NCBI GenBank assembly: GCA_008015095.1
Contig: SSEV01000021.1
Span: 1 to 64,000 of the forward strand
Reading direction: 5' to 3'
DNA from: Lysobacteraceae bacterium
Lineage (GTDB): Bacteria > Pseudomonadota > Gammaproteobacteria > Xanthomonadales > Xanthomonadaceae
DNA: 64,000 nucleotides
Shown here in pieces: positions 9,690-19,259 of this stretch. Each line of letters starts with the position of its first letter. Position 1 is the stretch's first letter. A model generated the notes under the pieces. The model ran no database searches. It saw only the letters and a program-made list of their open reading frames with translations, and had not been told where the DNA came from. Position numbers and translations under genes: made by a program.

Positions 9690-10937
9690 TCACGCTCGAC
9701 GCATCGCTGGCCATTGCAGGTAGGTCGCCGCGCGCCACAGCCATTCGGCCGGACCATAACGGAAGCGCGCCAGCCACCAGCGGCTGACAAGAACCTGCAG
9801 CGCGAACAGGGCCAGCGCGAACGCCGGCTGCCACGCGCGCGGCAGTCGCTCGAAGTATCCGAGGCCGTAGCCATAAAAAATCAACGTGCAGATCACCGAC
9901 TGCCCCAGATAATTGCTCAGCGCCATCCGCCCCGCTGGCGCGGTCAGCCGCAGGGCCGGGGCCAGCGGCGAAGACAATCCACGTAAAATCCAGGCGAGAT
10001 AGCCCAGGCACATCAACAACCCACCGCACATCGCCAAGCCGCCACTGACGCCGCTCACCAAATCAAGCCGATCATAGGCCTGCGTGGGCACCATCGCGAA
10101 CGAGCACGACATCATGCCGAGTCCCACCGGCACGCCGATCCAGCGCAGACCTGCGAACAGTCGCTGAAAATCCTGTGGCCGTTCGATCGCCCCGCTGCGC
10201 ACGAACCAGGCGCCAAGCAGGAACATGCCGAGAATCTGCCCGCCGATAAACATCAGCAAAGCCAGATTGAATACCGCGTCCGTCGCCCGCTGCGCCACCG
10301 CATCCCAATAGCCGCCGCTGCCATACGCCACACGCTGCGCATCAAGCAACTGCCGCATTTCGTCGCCCTGCTGCTGCAGGGCCTTGCTCATTTCCGCAGC
10401 GATGGTCGGCTCCAGGCTGGCGAGCCAGCCAAGCACGCCAAATCCCACCATCATCGCCACCGCGAACAGATAGCAACCGATCGCCCAATAAGGCAGTTGC
10501 CGCGATGGAACACCACGAAAGATCACCAGCATCGGGAAAGCGATCAGTGCGTACGTGGTCAGGATATCGCCCGACCAGATCAACAGGGCATGGATCAGGC
10601 CGATCAGCAGCAACGCCAGGATCCTACGCAGATACAGCATGAAGAATGGTCGCCCTGCGACTTCGGCGCGATGGCTCATCACCGCGAACCCCATACCGAA
10701 CAGCAGCGAGAACAGCAGGTAGAACTTGCCCTGCACCAGGACGTAGATCGCGGCGTCGACGAGTCGGTCGGCCCCATGCAAGGCCGGGTCGAGACCGGTG
10801 ACCGCCGCCAGCAGCGGCCCGACAAAGGCCTCGATATTCATCAGCAGAATGCCGAATAGCGCCACGCCGCGCAGCACATCCATGGCTTCGATGCGCTCGG
10901 CGGCGGGAATCGGTTGGAGCGACTCAGTCGAGCTCAT
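9690..10937 (-). CDS. DUF418 / YeiB-like multi-spanning membrane protein
   Basis: RIEAMDVLRGVALFGILLMNIEAF…; C-terminal GRMALSNYLGQSVICTLIFYGYGLGYF…RYGPAEWLWRAATY, characteristic of the YeiB/DUF418 family. Confidence 0.9.
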   Translation of the reverse strand: MSSTESLQPIPAAERIEAMDVLRGVALFGILLMNIEAFVGPLLAAVTGLDPALHGADRLVDAAIYVLVQGKFYLLFSLLFGMGFAVMSHRAEVAGRPFFMLYLRRILALLLIGLIHALLIWSGDILTTYALIAFPMLVIFRGVPSRQLPYWAIGCYLFAVAMMVGFGVLGWLASLEPTIAAEMSKALQQQGDEMRQLLDAQRVAYGSGGYWDAVAQRATDAVFNLALLMFIGGQILGMFLLGAWFVRSGAIERPQDFQRLFAGLRWIGVPVGLGMMSCSFAMVPTQAYDRLDLVSGVSGGLAMCGGLLMCLGYLAWILRGLSSPLAPALRLTAPAGRMALSNYLGQSVICTLIFYGYGLGYFERLPRAWQPAFALALFALQVLVSRWWLARFRYGPAEWLWRAATYLQWPAMRRA

Positions 10938-11081
10938 GGCGAAATCCGGAATCGGCAGGCCGTCTATGTTCTCGCAAACGGCGCCCACCGCAAGTGCGGG
11001 ATGCGAAGAACGACCTGATGGCGTCCATCGCTTGGCTTCGCCGCATGGGAGCATCGGCCACCGCCGTCGGCGGAATCGCGA

Positions 11082-12131
11082 TCAGGCTGCGATAATGATC
11101 GGGCGCTCGCCTCTTTCGTGCATTTCGCCGATAACGAACAAGGCTTGACCCTGCCGTTGCGCCAGAGACGACACCGCAGGCAAAGCATCGGCGGCAACCG
11201 TGATCAGCAAGCCGCCATTGGTCTGCGGGTCGCACAACAGCCGCAACTTCCATTCGGGAATGGTCGGACTTGCCGACACGTCCGCGCCGTAATGCGCATA
11301 GTTTCTTTTGGCCCCGCCGGTCTGGCGACCGCTCTCGGCCAAACCCACGGCCGCTGCCATCAGAGGAATTTCGGAGATGACGACGCGCGCGGTCGTTCCC
11401 GCGCCTAGCGCCATCTCGTGCAAATGGCCGATCAACCCGAAACCGGTGACGTCGGTCATGGCGGAAACGCCCTCGACTCCCGATACGATCGCGCCGAACG
11501 AATTCAACGTCGTAACGATACCCATCGCTGCCGCGTAGTGAGGGGACGTCTCCTCGAAACCCGCGATGCGATCCTTGATGGCGGACACTACAAGACCGAC
11601 ACCGATTGGCTTGGTCAGCGCGATGACATCCCCGGGGCGGGACGTGCTGTTCCTCAACATCCTCCGCGCTTCGACCTGCCCGATCACCGACAGACCGAAA
11701 ATCGGCTCCGACAAGTTGATCGAATGCCCACCGGCGATGGGGATTCCCGCCTCCGTGCAGGCCGATCGCGCGCCGTCCAGCACCTTCCGGATGACGTCAT
11801 CGTCGAGCTTGTCGGTCGGAAATCCCAGGATGGCGGTGGCCAACAACGGTTCCCCTCCCATCGCATAGATATCGGATATCGCGTTGCACGATGCGATCCG
11901 TCCCCACAGCAGCGGATCATCGACGATAGGTGGAAAGAAATCGAGCGAAGTCAGCGCGACCTGTCCGTCACGGATGCGGAAAGCCGCGGAATCCTCGTTT
12001 CCCTCGCGACCGACGAGCAACCACGGCAACGGCTCGCTGCGATCAGGCGCGCCGCCCAATAATTGTTTCAGATGCCCGGGCGCGATCTTGCAACCGCAGC
12101 CGCCGCCCATGGTGAGATCGGTCAATCGCAT
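11082..12131 (-). CDS. selD: Selenide, water dikinase (Cys-type)
   Basis: From ATG 12131: MRLTDLTMGGGCGCKIAPGHL…; TSLDFFPPIVDDPLLWGRIASCNAISDIYAMGG; DVTGFGLIGHLHEMA; DPQTNGGLL. Confidence 0.93.
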   Translation of the reverse strand: MRLTDLTMGGGCGCKIAPGHLKQLLGGAPDRSEPLPWLLVGREGNEDSAAFRIRDGQVALTSLDFFPPIVDDPLLWGRIASCNAISDIYAMGGEPLLATAILGFPTDKLDDDVIRKVLDGARSACTEAGIPIAGGHSINLSEPIFGLSVIGQVEARRMLRNSTSRPGDVIALTKPIGVGLVVSAIKDRIAGFEETSPHYAAAMGIVTTLNSFGAIVSGVEGVSAMTDVTGFGLIGHLHEMALGAGTTARVVISEIPLMAAAVGLAESGRQTGGAKRNYAHYGADVSASPTIPEWKLRLLCDPQTNGGLLITVAADALPAVSSLAQRQGQALFVIGEMHERGERPIIIAA

Positions 12132-12584
12132 AGCACCCTTCCTTGTTTGCGCTCGAAGTGCACGAGCCGTCAATACCTGATTATTTACGGATCGACTTCG
12201 TCGATACCGATGCGCAGTCTCAAAGCGCCACCGCATCGCGAATGTTACCGGAGGAATGCTACCGGACAGTCGCCCCATAGCGACACACTGCCGCGCTGAA
12301 CCGTCCATATGGCATCGGAATCGCATCCAAGGCGTCGTTCGAATTCCGGTCTCAGTTCGCCTTGCGCCGGCATGGCATCGGCCCGCCCCCGCACAAAAAA
12401 TCATATGGCGTTGTTTTAACAGGAATTTGCTTACCCGCCGAACGGTGCGATAGAATGCAACCGCATTGATGGCTAACAGCCATACGGCCGATGACCAAAG
12501 ACGTTTCGGATCGAGAGACTGTCTGACATCGATACGATGGCCATCATGGTTTGCCGCCATTTGCGGAACGATCCATTCGCAGAC

Positions 12585-12735
12585 CGTTGAACACGGTTTG
12601 TTCGCGCAGTCACGGAGGGCTGCGCCGACGAAGCAAGCGCGTAAGCGATTGATTCGTCGCGAGCGAATCCGGGGATGCGCCGGACTCGCGACTTGTAAAA
12701 CGCACAGGACGTGTGTGTTTCAACAGTCTGTCAGG
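12585..12735. repeat. Dispersed noncoding repeat copy R1
   Basis: accgttgaacacggtttgtt…ggctgcgccgacgaagcaagcgcg…aaacgcacaggacgtgtgtgtttcaacagtctgtcagg; imperfect but collinear with 15069-15297. Confidence 0.75.
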
Positions 12736-12984
12736 GGGAATTGGATGACCCGTCGGGAACAATCGCGCTGGCGCTTCCGCCAACCGTATTTTGGCTTATC
12801 GGACTCGAACCGAGCTTTTGCCGTCTCTGGAATTCCCCGCCTTGCGCTCGTATTGAACGGAGCGGTTGCAAAAGACCCTGGCGGCGGCCTCTCGCCTTTT
12901 CATCCAGGCGGGCCACATCTCGCGAAGGCATAACGCGATAAGCGCGCCGCGACCAAAGTCCCTCTAATCCGCCATTCAATTCTC

Positions 12985-13563
12985 ATGGCTCGATCACACA
13001 TGCGCATCGGCATCGTCCACGGCAGGTTCCAACCCATTCACAAAGGCCATCTCGATGGCTATATCAAGCCTGCCTGGCAACAGTGCGGTCAGCTGATCGT
13101 CGGCATCACGAACCCCGACCCGACGCATACCCTTCCCGACCCTGTCAATGTTTCCCGCACCGCGGCGCAGAACAACCCCTTGACTTTTTACGAGCGCTTG
13201 TCGCTGGTGCAAACCGCATTGAGCGGGATAGGCATCGACAGCGCCGATTTCCGCATTGTGCCGTTCCCGATCAATTTCCCACAGTTGCTGCGCTACTACC
13301 TGCCCGATGGCGCAACGCATTTTCTTACCATTTTCGACGAATGGGGCAGGCGAAAACGCGCTTTTCTCGAACAGCACGGCCACAAGGTGCACGTATTGGA
13401 AGAATCCGACATCAACAAGAAGAAAATTTCTTCGACAGAAGTGAGAAACAGGATTCTGAAAGGACAACGCTGGCAGGAACTGGTTCCGGAGCCTTGCCAT
13501 CACCTGCTCAGCTCGATGGACATCAAAGACCGCATTCAAAGACAAAGGGAGATTGGACGTTGA
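12985..13563 (+). CDS. Locus B gene 1: NadM-like (archaeal-type) nicotinamide-nucleotide adenylyltransferase family protein
   Basis: IGIVHGRFQPIHKGHLDGYI (GRFQPxHxGH) and KKKISSTEVRNRIL (ISSTxxR). Confidence 0.88.
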   Translation: MARSHMRIGIVHGRFQPIHKGHLDGYIKPAWQQCGQLIVGITNPDPTHTLPDPVNVSRTAAQNNPLTFYERLSLVQTALSGIGIDSADFRIVPFPINFPQLLRYYLPDGATHFLTIFDEWGRRKRAFLEQHGHKVHVLEESDINKKKISSTEVRNRILKGQRWQELVPEPCHHLLSSMDIKDRIQRQREIGR

Positions 13564-14405
13564 ACCGTTTGGCCTCGCTATCCATCCCTATACTTCTGGC
13601 GATCCTTTCAGAATGGATCTCTAGCTTGCTGCCAGTACCCAATGAACTTAAGCCGTTTTCTTGGCTTGCCATCCTATCTCTGTCATTGATTGCATTGCTT
13701 CATCTCAACCATAGATGGTTCATCGCCTACTTGAAGCTGTACACGGTCGCTAACATCCGCGGCCTATGGAGCGGCGAAGCGCTGAACAGATCGCTGACGC
13801 GCGACTACGAGAATTCGTCCCGCGTCGACATCAAAGTGACCCGCGGCTTCGGGCTGTTTCTTGAAAGCGACGGGGTCTTCAAGAAGCTGATTCTCGACCG
13901 GAAGAGCAAAGAAGACCGGAAGGTCAGAATTCTCCTTCATTACCCATGCTTGGAATCCGACCATTTGATCAGACGCGCCGAGGCGAACAACAAACTGCCG
14001 ACAGACTATGTCGACGATTTGTTCTGGGTGCTGAGAGCGCTGTTCCTCCACAGCCGCGATCCAAACAACAAAGAAACCATCATCATCCGCTTTTATTTGT
14101 CGGACAAGGATTCGGAATGGAGATTCTATGTCCTGGAGGACGATGACGGAAAAAAGACCTTGTATTTCAATCACTACAACAAATCCACGTCCGGGGCGAA
14201 ATCCAGGATGTTGAAAGTGCTCGCGGGGAACTACTCCCTATGCGACGAATTGGTTAATACGTTCAATGAATTGTTCGACAACGAGTCTCACGAGATCGTC
14301 ACCAACCACCAGAATCCTTTGTTATCAAAATCCGACCTGTGCGGACACCCCGGATGCAAAGAAGCAATCACCCAATCATTCCAAAAGCATTTTAGAAATG
14401 GCTGA
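13560..14405 (+). CDS. Locus B gene 2: two-TM protein with cytosolic sensor-like (possibly PLD-like) domain
   Basis: TTG start overlapping the TGA of gene 1 (tTGA); TM SIPILLAILSEWISSLL and FSWLAILSLSLIALLHL; soluble part VRILLHYPCLESD…IIIRFYLSDKDSEWRFYVLEDDDGKKTLYFNHYN. Confidence 0.75.
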   Translation: MNRLASLSIPILLAILSEWISSLLPVPNELKPFSWLAILSLSLIALLHLNHRWFIAYLKLYTVANIRGLWSGEALNRSLTRDYENSSRVDIKVTRGFGLFLESDGVFKKLILDRKSKEDRKVRILLHYPCLESDHLIRRAEANNKLPTDYVDDLFWVLRALFLHSRDPNNKETIIIRFYLSDKDSEWRFYVLEDDDGKKTLYFNHYNKSTSGAKSRMLKVLAGNYSLCDELVNTFNELFDNESHEIVTNHQNPLLSKSDLCGHPGCKEAITQSFQKHFRNG

Positions 14406-15012
14406 CACTATCGAAATCGTCAAAGACGAAGTCTTGTATTCCGGCAAGCTGCTCGATCTCGTCGCGCGAACCCTTCGCGTATCCAAAAGCGGGAATTCCT
14501 TCGAATACGCTATCGAAGTCGCAAGACGCCCGCCGGGAGTGCGCCTGCTCGTCAAGCGCGACTCCCGTTATCTGCTGCTGAAAGAATTCCGCGCCGAGTT
14601 GGGCCGATGGGATTACCGCCTTGCCGGGGGCAAGGTGTTCGAATCGCAATCCGACCACTTGGATTTTCTCCGTTCAGGCGAAGATCTTGGTCGAAGACTG
14701 CTGGCGGCCGCGACCGCCGAAGCGCGGGAAGAGCTTGGGATCGCTATCGAGTCCGCGCACCTGTTTCGGAAATCCAGCGCCGGCGCCACCGTAGATTGGG
14801 ATCTTTATTTCTTCGAGGTAGACGAATTCACGCCCCTTGAATCCGGCCCTCAACCGGAAGCAACCGAATTGCTGAAAGCGGAATGGCGCACGCAGGAAGA
14901 GGTTCTGCAACTGATCAAAGACGATCTTTTTTCGGAAGATCGGTCGATAGGCGTTTTTTTGCAGCACATGCTAACGAGCGGGAAATCCTTGATATGCGTC
15001 GATCCAATCTGA
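14398..15012 (+). CDS. Locus B gene 3: Nudix hydrolase
   Basis: 8-nt overlap with gene 2; WDYRLAGGKVFES…LLAAATAEAREELGIAIESAHLF is a Nudix box with insertion; WDLYFFEVDEFTP. Confidence 0.85.
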   Translation: MADTIEIVKDEVLYSGKLLDLVARTLRVSKSGNSFEYAIEVARRPPGVRLLVKRDSRYLLLKEFRAELGRWDYRLAGGKVFESQSDHLDFLRSGEDLGRRLLAAATAEAREELGIAIESAHLFRKSSAGATVDWDLYFFEVDEFTPLESGPQPEATELLKAEWRTQEEVLQLIKDDLFSEDRSIGVFLQHMLTSGKSLICVDPI

Positions 15013-15068
15013 CAAGTGCGGCTACTGAGAGGAAATGACACCGTGAACTGCAACGCGGTCTTGATTTA

Positions 15069-15297
15069 GCAAACCGCTGAAAAACGGTCTGCTAGCGCAA
15101 CCGGAGATGGCTGCGCCGACGAAGCGAGCGCGTCAGCGATGGATGCGTCGTGAGCGAGTCCGGGCATGGCCCAGACTGGCGAATTGGCTGCACCGGCAGG
15201 CGCCGGTGCGCAGCCACGCTGGCCGCGAAGTGGCGAGCCGCATGGATGCGACAAGTCAAAAATGCACAGGAAGTGCGTTTTTCAACAGCCTGCCAAA
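15069..15297. repeat. Dispersed noncoding repeat copy R2 (with extra internal segment)
   Basis: aaaccgctgaaaaacggtctgctag…ggctgcgccgacgaagcgagcgcg…aatgcacaggaagtgcgtttttcaacagcctgcca; same orientation as R1. Confidence 0.75.
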
Positions 15298-15345
15298 TCG
15301 CATCCAACGTCTTTTCCCTACGCGCATATTTCAAGTTTCAAGCAG

Positions 15346-15966
15346 TCAATCCAACCCCTCGATTCCTTGCGCATGCTGCTCCGCTTCCAACTTCAATATC
15401 CGCTCGCGCAATCCCCATCGCTCAATACACTCCGCGACAGACGGGCTGACCATATCTTTCCATCGGTCATCTCCTTGCTTGATCAGCCGCCTGATAGTTC
15501 TGCCGTCGAATCCCATATGTCTGCTGTCCGGGATCACGGAAACGTCGTAACCTTCGTTGCGCAAGCGCCTTATTTTTTCGTCGTTCCAATCGTAAAGCCT
15601 CGTCGTGACGCAAGTCACTTCTTTCGGGATCGAATGTTGGATCAACGATGGAGTATCGATCGGGAATGGCGCGAACTCGATTCTGGCGCTGTCGATACCG
15701 AGGTCATCGCAACATCGGCGGACCAAGATGATGCGTTCCAGATAATTCAGGGGATTTGCCGTAGGCAGAACCCTGTGTTCGACACCAGGGTAGACATCCG
15801 AAACCGGCGTCGCTGCTGCGATTCCGACCACCACGTCATCCCAACCTCTCAGGCAAGCCTGGAGATACTCCGCATGTCCCAAATGGAACGGCTGGAACCT
15901 GCCATGGATACATGCTATTCGACGAATGTTTTGAAATCCCACGAATTTCCCTCGCACGAACGCCAC
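15346..15966 (-). CDS. Locus C gene 2: second, divergent NadM-like adenylyltransferase
   Basis: IACIHGRFQPFHLGHAEYLQACLRGWDDVVVGIAAA…ANPLNYLERIILVRR; C-terminal MGFDGRTIRRLIKQGDDRW. Overlaps the upstream CDS by about 50 nt, or less if a later start is used. Confidence 0.85.
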   Translation of the reverse strand: MAFVRGKFVGFQNIRRIACIHGRFQPFHLGHAEYLQACLRGWDDVVVGIAAATPVSDVYPGVEHRVLPTANPLNYLERIILVRRCCDDLGIDSARIEFAPFPIDTPSLIQHSIPKEVTCVTTRLYDWNDEKIRRLRNEGYDVSVIPDSRHMGFDGRTIRRLIKQGDDRWKDMVSPSVAECIERWGLRERILKLEAEQHAQGIEGLD

Positions 15967-16841
15967 ATCTGTTCGAAATAATCCTTCATCGCACCATAGA
16001 GTTCGAGGTCGTGCGCCCTGTTTTCCGAAGCTGAGATCTCGATATTCGGATTACTGAAGTTATCGTATTCGTTCTCGCCGAATTTCGCGGCGGTCTCCGT
16101 ATATTGACCGAAAAGGCATGATTTTCCATTCAGAAAAATCAATCTGAAGATGGGCTTCTGCGTGTAAAAGCGGACTTCGACATTCCCCGCATAGTTGCTC
16201 TTGATCAACTTGATCCTGGCCAAAGACGCGGTGATTCTTCCTCTGAATTCGTTTTTCGCCAGCCCTCTTCTCTGCGCTGTGTCCGCAACCCACTCAGCGT
16301 CGGGGTGAATGAGCAACAGCCTCACCGGTTGATGCGCGCTTCCGCACCTGTTGACCACTCCCCTGAAGACATCGACGTCCCTGGTGAGCTTATCGGCCCC
16401 GACCCCCATCATCATAAATTCCTTTGCAGCCGATTCGAGGATTTTCCTGTAATCGGCCATTCCAGGCTTGAGGGTCACGCCATGAATCCCCAGCACGTTG
16501 GCTTTCTTCGCGAACGACACGAGCGCTAGCCAGGAATAAGCAAAACGAAGGGCGTAAAACATCAAAGGGACAAAACTCAATATCACAATTACAACCCCAA
16601 GCCCACTGACCTTGTTGTCCTTCGTGACGGAATAAAGGCACAGCGCGGGGAACAGTGAAACGCCCAAAAAGCCGAAAAAGTCCTTATACAAGACTAGTTT
16701 TTGGTTTTTGTTTCTGAGGTAGCGGTCAAGCCATCGCAGAACGACGAGCAGCGCCGTCTGTATAATCAAAAAGAACAGCGATGCATAAAGATTCTGGGTG
16801 ATCGGAACGGCCCAATCTTCAGGTGTCCCCGGATAGTTCAT
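15915..16841 (-). CDS. Locus C gene 1: multi-TM protein with sensor-like (possibly PLD-like) cytosolic domain
   Basis: ATG at 16841 preceded by GGGGGAG; three N-terminal TM segments; FMMMGVGADKL…VRLLLIHPDAEWVADTA…VEVRFYTQKPIFRLIFLNGKSCLFGQYTE…MKDYFEQMW. Confidence 0.75.
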   Translation of the reverse strand: MNYPGTPEDWAVPITQNLYASLFFLIIQTALLVVLRWLDRYLRNKNQKLVLYKDFFGFLGVSLFPALCLYSVTKDNKVSGLGVVIVILSFVPLMFYALRFAYSWLALVSFAKKANVLGIHGVTLKPGMADYRKILESAAKEFMMMGVGADKLTRDVDVFRGVVNRCGSAHQPVRLLLIHPDAEWVADTAQRRGLAKNEFRGRITASLARIKLIKSNYAGNVEVRFYTQKPIFRLIFLNGKSCLFGQYTETAAKFGENEYDNFSNPNIEISASENRAHDLELYGAMKDYFEQMWRSCEGNSWDFKTFVE

Positions 16842-17033: not shown

Positions 17034-17513
17034 TCAGTGATGATGCCCGCCCTCGCCGTGCACATGACCGTGTTCGATTTCCTCGGCGCTGGCTTCGCGC
17101 ACATCGACCACTTCGATCTCGAAATGCAGATCCTTGCCGGCCATCGGGTGGTTCAGATCGACATCGACCACGCTCATGCCGACCTTTTCGATGGTGACCG
17201 CGCGCGGGCCGAAGTTGGTTTGCAACAGGACTTGCATCCCCGGGATCAGACGCTGCTCGCCGAAATGCTTTTTCGGGATGCGCTGAGTCAGGCCTTCGCG
17301 GCGTTCGCCATAGGCTTCGGCCGCCGGCACGTCGACTGCGAAGCTGTCACCGGCCTCGCGATCCTGCATCGCGTTCTCCAGGCCCGGGATGATCTGACCA
17401 TGGCCGATGAGGATCGTCAGGGGATCGCCGCCTTTGGAGCTTTCGCTGGCGGGCTGGCCGACTTCGGAAACGCTGTAGTGGAAGCGGACGACGCGGTCTT
17501 TTTCGATTTTCAT
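17034..17513 (-). CDS. slyD: FKBP-type peptidyl-prolyl isomerase SlyD-like
   Basis: MKIEKDRVVRFHYSVSE…LIGHGQIIPGLENAM…AYGERREGLTQRIPKKHF…NHPMAGKDLHFEIEVVDVREAS; His-rich tail. Confidence 0.93.
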   Translation of the reverse strand: MKIEKDRVVRFHYSVSEVGQPASESSKGGDPLTILIGHGQIIPGLENAMQDREAGDSFAVDVPAAEAYGERREGLTQRIPKKHFGEQRLIPGMQVLLQTNFGPRAVTIEKVGMSVVDVDLNHPMAGKDLHFEIEVVDVREASAEEIEHGHVHGEGGHHH

Positions 17514-17563
17514 GGAGAACCTGGAAATAGGGACGGACAGGGCCGGCTTGCCGCGGGCCGAGG

Positions 17564-18166
17564 ATGCGGCCAAGATCGACCGCGATGAGAACGAAGGCCG
17601 CGCATTATCCGCACTCCATCGGCCCGGCGCCATTGTCCCGGCCGATGGCCTGGTGCGGCCTGCTCACACTGTGCGCCCTCAGTTCGCTGACGGGCGGTTG
17701 CGGGGGCGGCGATCAGGTCCGTAGGCCCACTCCTGCCGCCGACTCGACGGCGCATCGTGGCTGGCCGGCGATTGAGGCGGAAGATCCTGCCGCGGCCAAT
17801 GCCGTATTGATGCGGGCGATCGGCCTGGTCGGCACGCCCTATCGTTATGGCGGCAACACCCCCGAAAGCGGCTTCGATTGCAGCGGGCTGGTGCATTACG
17901 TCTTTAGCGACACGCTCGATCTCAGACTACCGCGGACTTCGCGCGAACTGGCCCGTATCCAGGGGCCGCAGATCGCTCCGGAGCGGCTGGCCCCAGCCGA
18001 TCTGGTGTTTTTCGGCAGCGGCGGCGAGGTCAGCCATGTCGGCATTTACGTCGGAGAGGGGCGGTTCGTACATGCCCCCAGCACAGGCGGCACGGTCAGA
18101 CTCGATCACCTCGATAGCGCCTATTGGCGGGATCACTACACAGGAGCGAAACGGGTTCTGAAATAG
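17564..18166 (+). CDS. NlpC/P60 (C40) family cell-wall peptidase
   Basis: GTPYRYGGNTPESGFDCSGLVHYVF, LPRTSREL, HVGIYVGEGRFVHAPSTGG. Confidence 0.92.
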   Translation: MRPRSTAMRTKAAHYPHSIGPAPLSRPMAWCGLLTLCALSSLTGGCGGGDQVRRPTPAADSTAHRGWPAIEAEDPAAANAVLMRAIGLVGTPYRYGGNTPESGFDCSGLVHYVFSDTLDLRLPRTSRELARIQGPQIAPERLAPADLVFFGSGGEVSHVGIYVGEGRFVHAPSTGGTVRLDHLDSAYWRDHYTGAKRVLK

Positions 18167-19046: not shown

Positions 19047-19073
19047 AGGGCCGCGTTCGCGGCCCTGATTTTG
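19047..19073 (+). terminator. Rho-independent terminator (agggccgcgttcgcggccct + gatttt)
   Basis: Perfect stem followed by T-rich tract, downstream of NlpC/P60 stop. Confidence 0.8.
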
Positions 19074-19128
19074 TGTGCGCTGCCGCGTTCGCGGCCCTGA
19101 TTTTGTGTGCGCTGCCGCGTTCGCGGCC
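19050..19128. repeat. 32-bp tandem repeat, ~2.5 copies (gccgcgttcgcggccctgattttgtgtgcgct)
   Basis: Copies at 19050-19081, 19082-19113 and partial 19114-19128; duplicates the terminator hairpin. Confidence 0.95.
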
Positions 19129-19259
19129 AGGTTGTTTCCGGCCGCCGTTCTTCAGGTGGCGTGCAATCTCGACCTACATCCCAGATGACGGTGACGGACT
19201 TGCGCCCCACCCTGCACTGCGCGATGCTCCGGCATAGTCCGAATCCGGGGAGATCGGCC

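Follow-up and report, generated by a model that had tools for sequence, protein, structure and literature searches.

Genes and features at locus C

Locus C consists of two overlapping genes on the minus strand of the window, the 64,000-nucleotide stretch of Lysobacteraceae DNA that was analysed. The first gene (15915-16841) encodes a 308-aa protein, sensor C, which is regarded as a sensor or effector. It carries three N-terminal transmembrane (TM) helices and ends in a PLD-like (DUF5919) domain whose HKD motif is degenerate. The second gene (15346-15942, GTG start) encodes NadM-C, a 198-aa NadM-like nucleotidyltransferase of the HIGH superfamily. Both reading frames were found where an earlier note on this DNA had placed them, and the ribosome-binding-site-like GGGGGAG that it reported ahead of the ATG at 16841 occupies 16850-16844 on the minus strand. 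The three TM segments of sensor C are likewise upheld, since hydropathy (residues 17-35, 55-73 and 80-98) and the AlphaFold2 model (helices 13-42, 48-75 and 80-117; mean pLDDT 83.7) agree on them; the C-terminal domain is modelled as alpha/beta. The overlap of about 50 nt that had been given for the pair holds for the longest NadM-C frame (GTG 15966, 52 nt). However, it is 28 nt when the start is set at GTG 15942 (MGFQNI...HGRFQPFH), to which the homologs align, and the same 28-nt overlap is found in the related loci L006-L010. The nearest relatives of the pair come from Rhodoferax and from two near-identical IMG/VR contigs (56-60% identity for NadM, 38-39% for the sensor). This conservation takes the arrangement far beyond chance, and sensor C and NadM-C are a real gene pair.

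Locus B and its relation to locus C

Locus B lies on the plus strand and is thus convergent to locus C with a repeat in between, as had been noted. Its first gene (12985-13563) encodes NadM-B (192 aa, 30% identical to NadM-C), the second (13560-14405, TTG start) the 281-aa membrane sensor B with N-terminal hydrophobic segment(s) and a remote DUF5919/PLD-like domain, and the third (14398-15012) a 204-aa Nudix hydrolase, which scores above the PF00293 cut-off and is conserved with loci L085 and L052. The AlphaFold2 model of sensor B (pLDDT 48) was discarded as too poor. The intergenic repeat between B and C (15061-15300) has inverted ends at 15063-15099 and 15263-15299, and a second copy lies between selD and B (12576-12733), with 79% identity to it at 12576-12695. 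The two copies flank module B within the island described below; they are absent from the rest of the window and from four related regions. Another repetitive stretch of the window (19050-19145) holds three near-tandem 32-bp repeats (GCCGCGTTCGCGGC...).

The relation between the two loci was assessed by comparing their proteins and by a maximum-likelihood tree of 89 proteins. Pairwise BLAST detects no similarity between sensor B and sensor C; a profile-profile comparison gives moderate agreement (probability 77%, E 2e-5) and links their C-terminal domains remotely. In the tree, NadM-B clusters with B-type loci of Lysobacter and Winogradskyella (3 rows, support 100/97) and NadM-C with 18 C-type loci (19 rows plus L028, support 99/94). 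These two groups are distinct, and both fall within a supported set of 31 proteins (97/96). The set stands apart from the actinobacterial proteins linked to SelD and is very distant from an annotated archaeal NadM. A tandem duplication is set aside by this tree. The view that B and C are two non-identical, divergent versions of one kind of module, and no simple duplication, is therefore borne out: they appear to be homologous modules that have diverged, not recent duplicates. The two Nudix families may even have been recruited separately, as no relation between the B-type and the C-type family could be detected by profile comparison.

The opposite reading, also raised earlier, is that the NadM-like genes are ordinary housekeeping paralogs which chance has brought together with unrelated membrane neighbours. 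The failure of BLAST to relate the two membrane proteins fits this reading. Against it, the sensors are linked by profile, no NadM-like gene occurs in 40 other genomes of the family, and each of the two pairings is found again in further genomes. The recurrence already refutes a chance pairing, and we give this reading next to no weight.

Relatives and gene order

Relatives of the module were searched for in 84,980 genomes, combined with ORF analysis, and simple ORF rules served to call the genes next to them. Seventeen further C-type loci, in which a sensor C homolog lies beside NadM, were recovered from Pseudomonadota, Acidobacteriota, Nitrospirota and Melainabacteria; two more loci, from Lysobacter and Winogradskyella MAGs, are of the B type. 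The module is thus conserved in about 20 genomes from several phyla. Among the loci recovered, B and C never occur together outside the window, each having its own NadM clade. Scans of viral contigs with sensor C or NadM-B alone gave no matches, and those with NadM or Nudix profiles gave only the two Rhodoferax-like contigs. No match to the module was found in phage records, nor any sensor match on plasmids.

The B-type order is (SelD -) NadM - sensor - Nudix, and the C-type order Nudix - sensor - (SelD-like) - NadM. A Nudix gene precedes the sensor in all 16 C-type relatives with a contig long enough to assess; L014 ends at a contig edge, and L023 has the Nudix and NadM genes without sensor C. 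The C-type Nudix protein carries an N-terminal HARE-HTH domain in many loci. Its best match among solved structures is TM1382 (3e57, E=7e-23), which we take to be a Nudix protein, and the REL.EE of the REUxEE box is invariant. Since all assessable C-type relatives have a Nudix gene, its absence from locus C of the window is unusual. Only 192 nt separate the locus from the next gene and they hold no Nudix remnant, and the gene has apparently been lost. The inverted order without a Nudix gene, as described earlier, is accordingly correct for the absence itself but not as a separate design, because here the usual C-type order lacks its first gene. As a side observation, the C-type modules without SelD (L013, L014, L015, L016, L022 and L039) adjoin a gene for a D12-class adenine methylase.

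selD and the acquired island

A selD gene on the minus strand (11082-12131), missed in the earlier note, lies beside locus B. It encodes a canonical selenide, water dikinase of 349 aa (359.1 bits against a cut-off of 125) with the motif GGGCGCK, in which the catalytic Cys and Lys are kept. This gene belongs to the same island as B and C and is the main clue to the function of the module. The island (11082-16841) holds six genes: selD and the modules B and C. It sits exactly between an FKBP gene (17034-17633) and a DUF418-like gene (9690-11054), which directly abut each other in two relatives without it (G682 and G165). This empty site identifies the island as an insertion, and comparison of the regions indicates that selD, B and C arrived as one accessory island. 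In a survey of the family, SelD was found in 2 of 41 genomes and a NadM-like gene only in that of the window; a complete genome of the same genus has neither. The suggestion of a specialised hotspot is not borne out, as the island comprises just the two modules and selD, and other copies lie at unrelated sites. Taken as a whole, the module is an undescribed, horizontally acquired one in which a nucleotide-making enzyme is paired with a membrane protein.

SelD linkage across module genomes

A SelD or SelD-like gene lies beside the module in 13 of the 20 module genomes. Twelve of these 13 lack both SelA and SelU; SelU is present in one (L040) and SelA in none. Conversely, all seven genomes without an adjacent SelD have SelU (L007, L008) or SelA (L013, L015, L016, L022, L039), and six of the seven have a clear SelD elsewhere. 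The Fisher test of this complementarity gives p=1e-4, a value uncorrected for phylogeny and weakened by the non-independence of the module genomes (two Rhodoferax, five of an Acidobacteriota/Nitrospirota group), most of which are incomplete MAGs. The complete chromosome of Methylomonas LW13 contains neither SelA, SelU nor a canonical SelD, but only the diverged SelD-like gene of the module. The GCxxK motif is kept in all module SelD-like proteins, of which the canonical ones alone pass the SelD cut-off, that of L029 scoring close to noise. In the window genome SelA and SelU gave no match and NadD was not found; these absences are provisional, as the genome is 75% complete. The SelD genes of L101 and L095 (G665, G667) contain an in-frame TGA and possibly encode a selenocysteine-containing SelD.

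The simplest account of this complementarity is that the module needs the product of SelD and supplies the gene itself in hosts that lack one. From the gene distribution, the module appears to depend on SelD, a selenium-activating enzyme, and for several modules without an adjacent copy a shared SelD is assumed. We consider it very probable that this is a conserved SelD-linked module.

The NadM-like enzyme

Both NadM-like enzymes keep the HxGH motif of the HIGH superfamily (GRFQPFHLGH and GRFQPIHKGH), and H20 and H23 vary little or not at all in the alignment. Their best matches among solved structures are archaeal NMN adenylyltransferases (NMNATs; 1f9a, E=3.5e-23). However, NadM-C and NadM-B score 55.4 and 66 bits with TIGR01527 (NMNAT, cut-off 181.2) and 71.1 and 76.4 bits with NF002243 (cut-off 127), i.e. 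far below both cut-offs. They could still be true NMNATs that rebuild NAD locally, with the Nudix enzyme turning over NAD or ADP-ribose. The structural matches are in line with this, and the Nudix gene beside NadM recalls the bifunctional NadM/Nudix enzymes (PMC9503650). The low scores and the very long branch to an annotated archaeal NadM speak against it, and it leaves both SelD and the SelA/SelU complementarity unexplained. We therefore regard a role in NAD supply as improbable. NMN is a doubtful substrate on the same grounds, and the name "NadM-like" probably gives a wrong idea of the function.

The neighbors in other clades suggest a different chemistry. Enzymes of the HIGH superfamily attach a nucleotide to a phosphate group, and both SelD and PEP synthase phosphorylate a small compound while turning ATP into AMP and Pi. 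SelD accompanies the NadM-like genes in other clades, together with a gene whose best match is PhpG, and plasmids of Treponema, Enterococcus and Rhodococcus carry a PEP-synthase-like dikinase instead of SelD. PhpG is the partner of PhpF, a PF01467 cytidylyltransferase of phosphonoformate (PMC6697681; PMC8976061). Some further arrangements were seen. In L017-L082 (many actinobacterial and other MAGs) and L105, SelD lies directly upstream of the NadM-like gene, often together with PhpG/ApgM-like and rhodanese-like genes. The Treponema saccharophilum plasmid pTS2 (L103:5986-10349) carries a run of NadM-like, PEP-synthase-like dikinase, cysteine desulfurase and viperin genes, and viperin also adjoins the NadM-like gene of a Bacteroidales MAG (L073).

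The SelD/NadM-like/PhpG-like clusters possibly represent a separate pathway to a selenium metabolite. It can be asked whether the module itself serves selenium metabolism or sensing, with the NadM-like enzyme and SelD making a seleno-nucleotide cofactor or storage compound, the membrane protein acting as regulator or transporter, and no part in defence. Such a role would fit the SelD linkage, the complementarity with SelA/SelU and the many NadM-like genes whose only company is SelD and a PhpG/ApgM-like gene, in clusters that appear metabolic. Those clusters, however, belong to other clades and have no sensor, whereas the sensor-type loci swap in TIR or TIR-NB-ARC proteins, are patchily distributed and, in the window, lie in an acquired island. 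A purely metabolic role is a serious but minority prospect.

The sensor domain and its alternative outputs

A PLD-like fold is predicted for sensor C: the fold search returned FAM83B (5lzk, DUF1669; E=1.5e-4) and Zucchini (4ggj, E=7.9e-4) with a probability of 1.00, at TM-scores of only 0.3-0.5. By eye, the HxKx4D motif is not kept; an invariant R233 (PxFRLMFID..CL.S.Y) replaces the His, and no Lys follows at +2. An active phospholipase or nuclease is discounted by the loss of this motif, and binding is the more likely role of the domain. We know of no function assigned to DUF5919 domains. With DUF5919 (PF19319, cut-off 23.5), sensor C (15.6 bits) and L006 (19.8) remain below the cut-off and the relative L015 (24.9) passes; a PF19319 search of 399 genomes of the phylum gave no matches, the controls being equally silent.

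A profile of the sensor C domain was then run on 4,396 ORFs taken from these loci. Outside its own family it matched only sensor B (window, L085 and L052), the L075 protein with TIR-NB-ARC and a single L028 protein (E 6e-5 to 7e-4), with a clear gap to noise (next E 0.26), and all of these adjoin NadM-like genes. In L075 (Spirochaetales MAG) the DUF5919-like domain forms the end of a TIR-NB-ARC-TPR protein beside SelD-HIT-NadM, the operon (L075:257-5443) reading SelD - HIT - NadM-like - TIR-NB-ARC-TPR-DUF5919. On Rhodococcus plasmids, DUF5919-like proteins (E 3e-11 and 7e-9) adjoin NadM and the PEP-synthase-like dikinase; the one on L106 has a BTAD-like N-terminal region, a weak match below the cut-off. 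In L023 (Microbacteriaceae MAG), a CAP12-type TIR protein replaces the membrane protein, and this locus would be the TIR version of the module. Its genes (L023:3635-8041) are Nudix, NadM-like, D12 DNA methylase, SelD and the CAP12-type TIR with a GAF-like region. As the DUF5919-like domain recurs with TM, TIR-NB-ARC and BTAD-like parts, and TIR is swapped in at L023, the domain architectures suggest that a single sensing domain is combined with varying outputs.

Proposed mechanism

Viewed as a whole, the module resembles a bacterial alarm system with a small nucleotide as its signal. SelD would make selenophosphate from selenide and ATP. The NadM-like enzyme, PhpF-like rather than an NMN adenylyltransferase, would then join a nucleotide to selenophosphate (probably) or to a similar small phosphorylated compound. 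The membrane protein would bind the resulting nucleotide through its PLD-like domain, and upon phage infection it would permeabilise or otherwise alter the inner membrane as abortive phage defence. The Nudix enzyme would cleave the signal and keep the system off, and Nudix B may serve both B and C. The sequence of dikinase, nucleotidylation and DUF5919 sensing is proposed because of the PhpG company, the dikinase swap and the chemistry shared by SelD and PEP synthase. A role in defence is suggested by the swapping of effectors, the patchy and inserted distribution and the neighbors of the defence type: SIR2 and methylases at the modules, TIR and viperin beside NadM-like genes. Counting against the mechanism, the retained HxGH and the archaeal NMNATs as best match leave room for a NAD-type product. 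We hold the full scheme, from nucleotidylation of the SelD product through sensing at the membrane and removal by Nudix to phage defence, only tentatively.

The direction of the signal could also be reversed. In a guard or decoy arrangement, a constantly made nucleotide would keep the membrane protein closed, and signal-destroying enzymes of the phage would release it. The translational coupling of enzyme and sensor by their 28-nt overlap and the lack of a separate phage sensor in the module agree with this. Panoptes, in which phage destruction of signalling nucleotides reportedly releases the effector, offers a precedent for such logic. However, the operon normally also holds a Nudix gene, whose product would remove the ligand, and a guard is unlikely.

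The boldest version of the alarm model is a selenium-based second messenger, in which a nucleotidyl-selenophosphate, made by SelD and a PhpF/NadM-like enzyme, would activate DUF5919 sensors with membrane, TIR or regulatory outputs in phage defence. We offer it as a speculative possibility. In any case, the module provides SelD with concrete partners and with a prediction, namely a selenium-containing nucleotide that is sensed by DUF5919. If the module also acts in defence, immunity by nucleotide signals would gain both an enzyme class and an element that are new to it.

Comparison with known systems

Like CBASS, Pycsar, Thoeris and type III CRISPR, the module places a nucleotide-making enzyme (its signal being putative here) next to a membrane or TIR effector, and it shares with them a putative signal-degrading hydrolase, swappable effectors and a patchy distribution. 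Unlike in these systems, the enzyme is a NadM-like member of the HIGH superfamily and not a CD-NTase, cyclase, TIR or Cas10, the sensing domain is PLD-like DUF5919, and SelD is involved. No CD-NTase (cGAS/DncV-like) is found among the six island genes. PADLOC gave no match among the B and C proteins, so that the core genes fit none of its known defence models, and in open-licence papers no description of DUF5919, of NadM/Nudix in defence or of SelD in defence was found.

The fold family, the HxGH motif and the frequent Nudix company are shared with archaeal NadM (MJ0541, MTH150) and the bifunctional NadM-Nudix enzymes. In contrast to these, the module enzymes fall below all NMNAT cut-offs, belong to separate gene families and have SelD and membrane partners. 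Phage-type NAD salvage combines NadV with a fused NadM-Nudix; the island has no NadV, and its Nudix and NadM are separate genes. With PhpF/PhpG of phosphinothricin biosynthesis, the module would share a PF01467 enzyme activating a small phosphorus compound with a nucleotide, and NadM-like relatives lie beside PhpG-like genes. However, B and C have no PhpG-like gene, their substrate is presumed to be selenophosphate, and the likeness to PhpF is drawn from its description.

To our knowledge, the known roles of SelD are limited to a few selenium traits. The module resembles these (selenocysteine, selenouridine, Se-cofactor, selenoneine) and the orphan SelD genes in its apparent need for SelD; it differs in that the window genome has no SelA or SelU and that its partners are a nucleotidyltransferase, a Nudix enzyme and a membrane sensor. 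Unexplained orphan SelD genes have been described in Methylobacterium nodulans and Brevundimonas (PMC5322559, PMC5029168). These are genera or lineages near the module loci L029 and L038. If true, a selenium messenger would be a new SelD-dependent selenium trait and the first defence signal built with selenium, and it could account for some of the orphan SelD genes.
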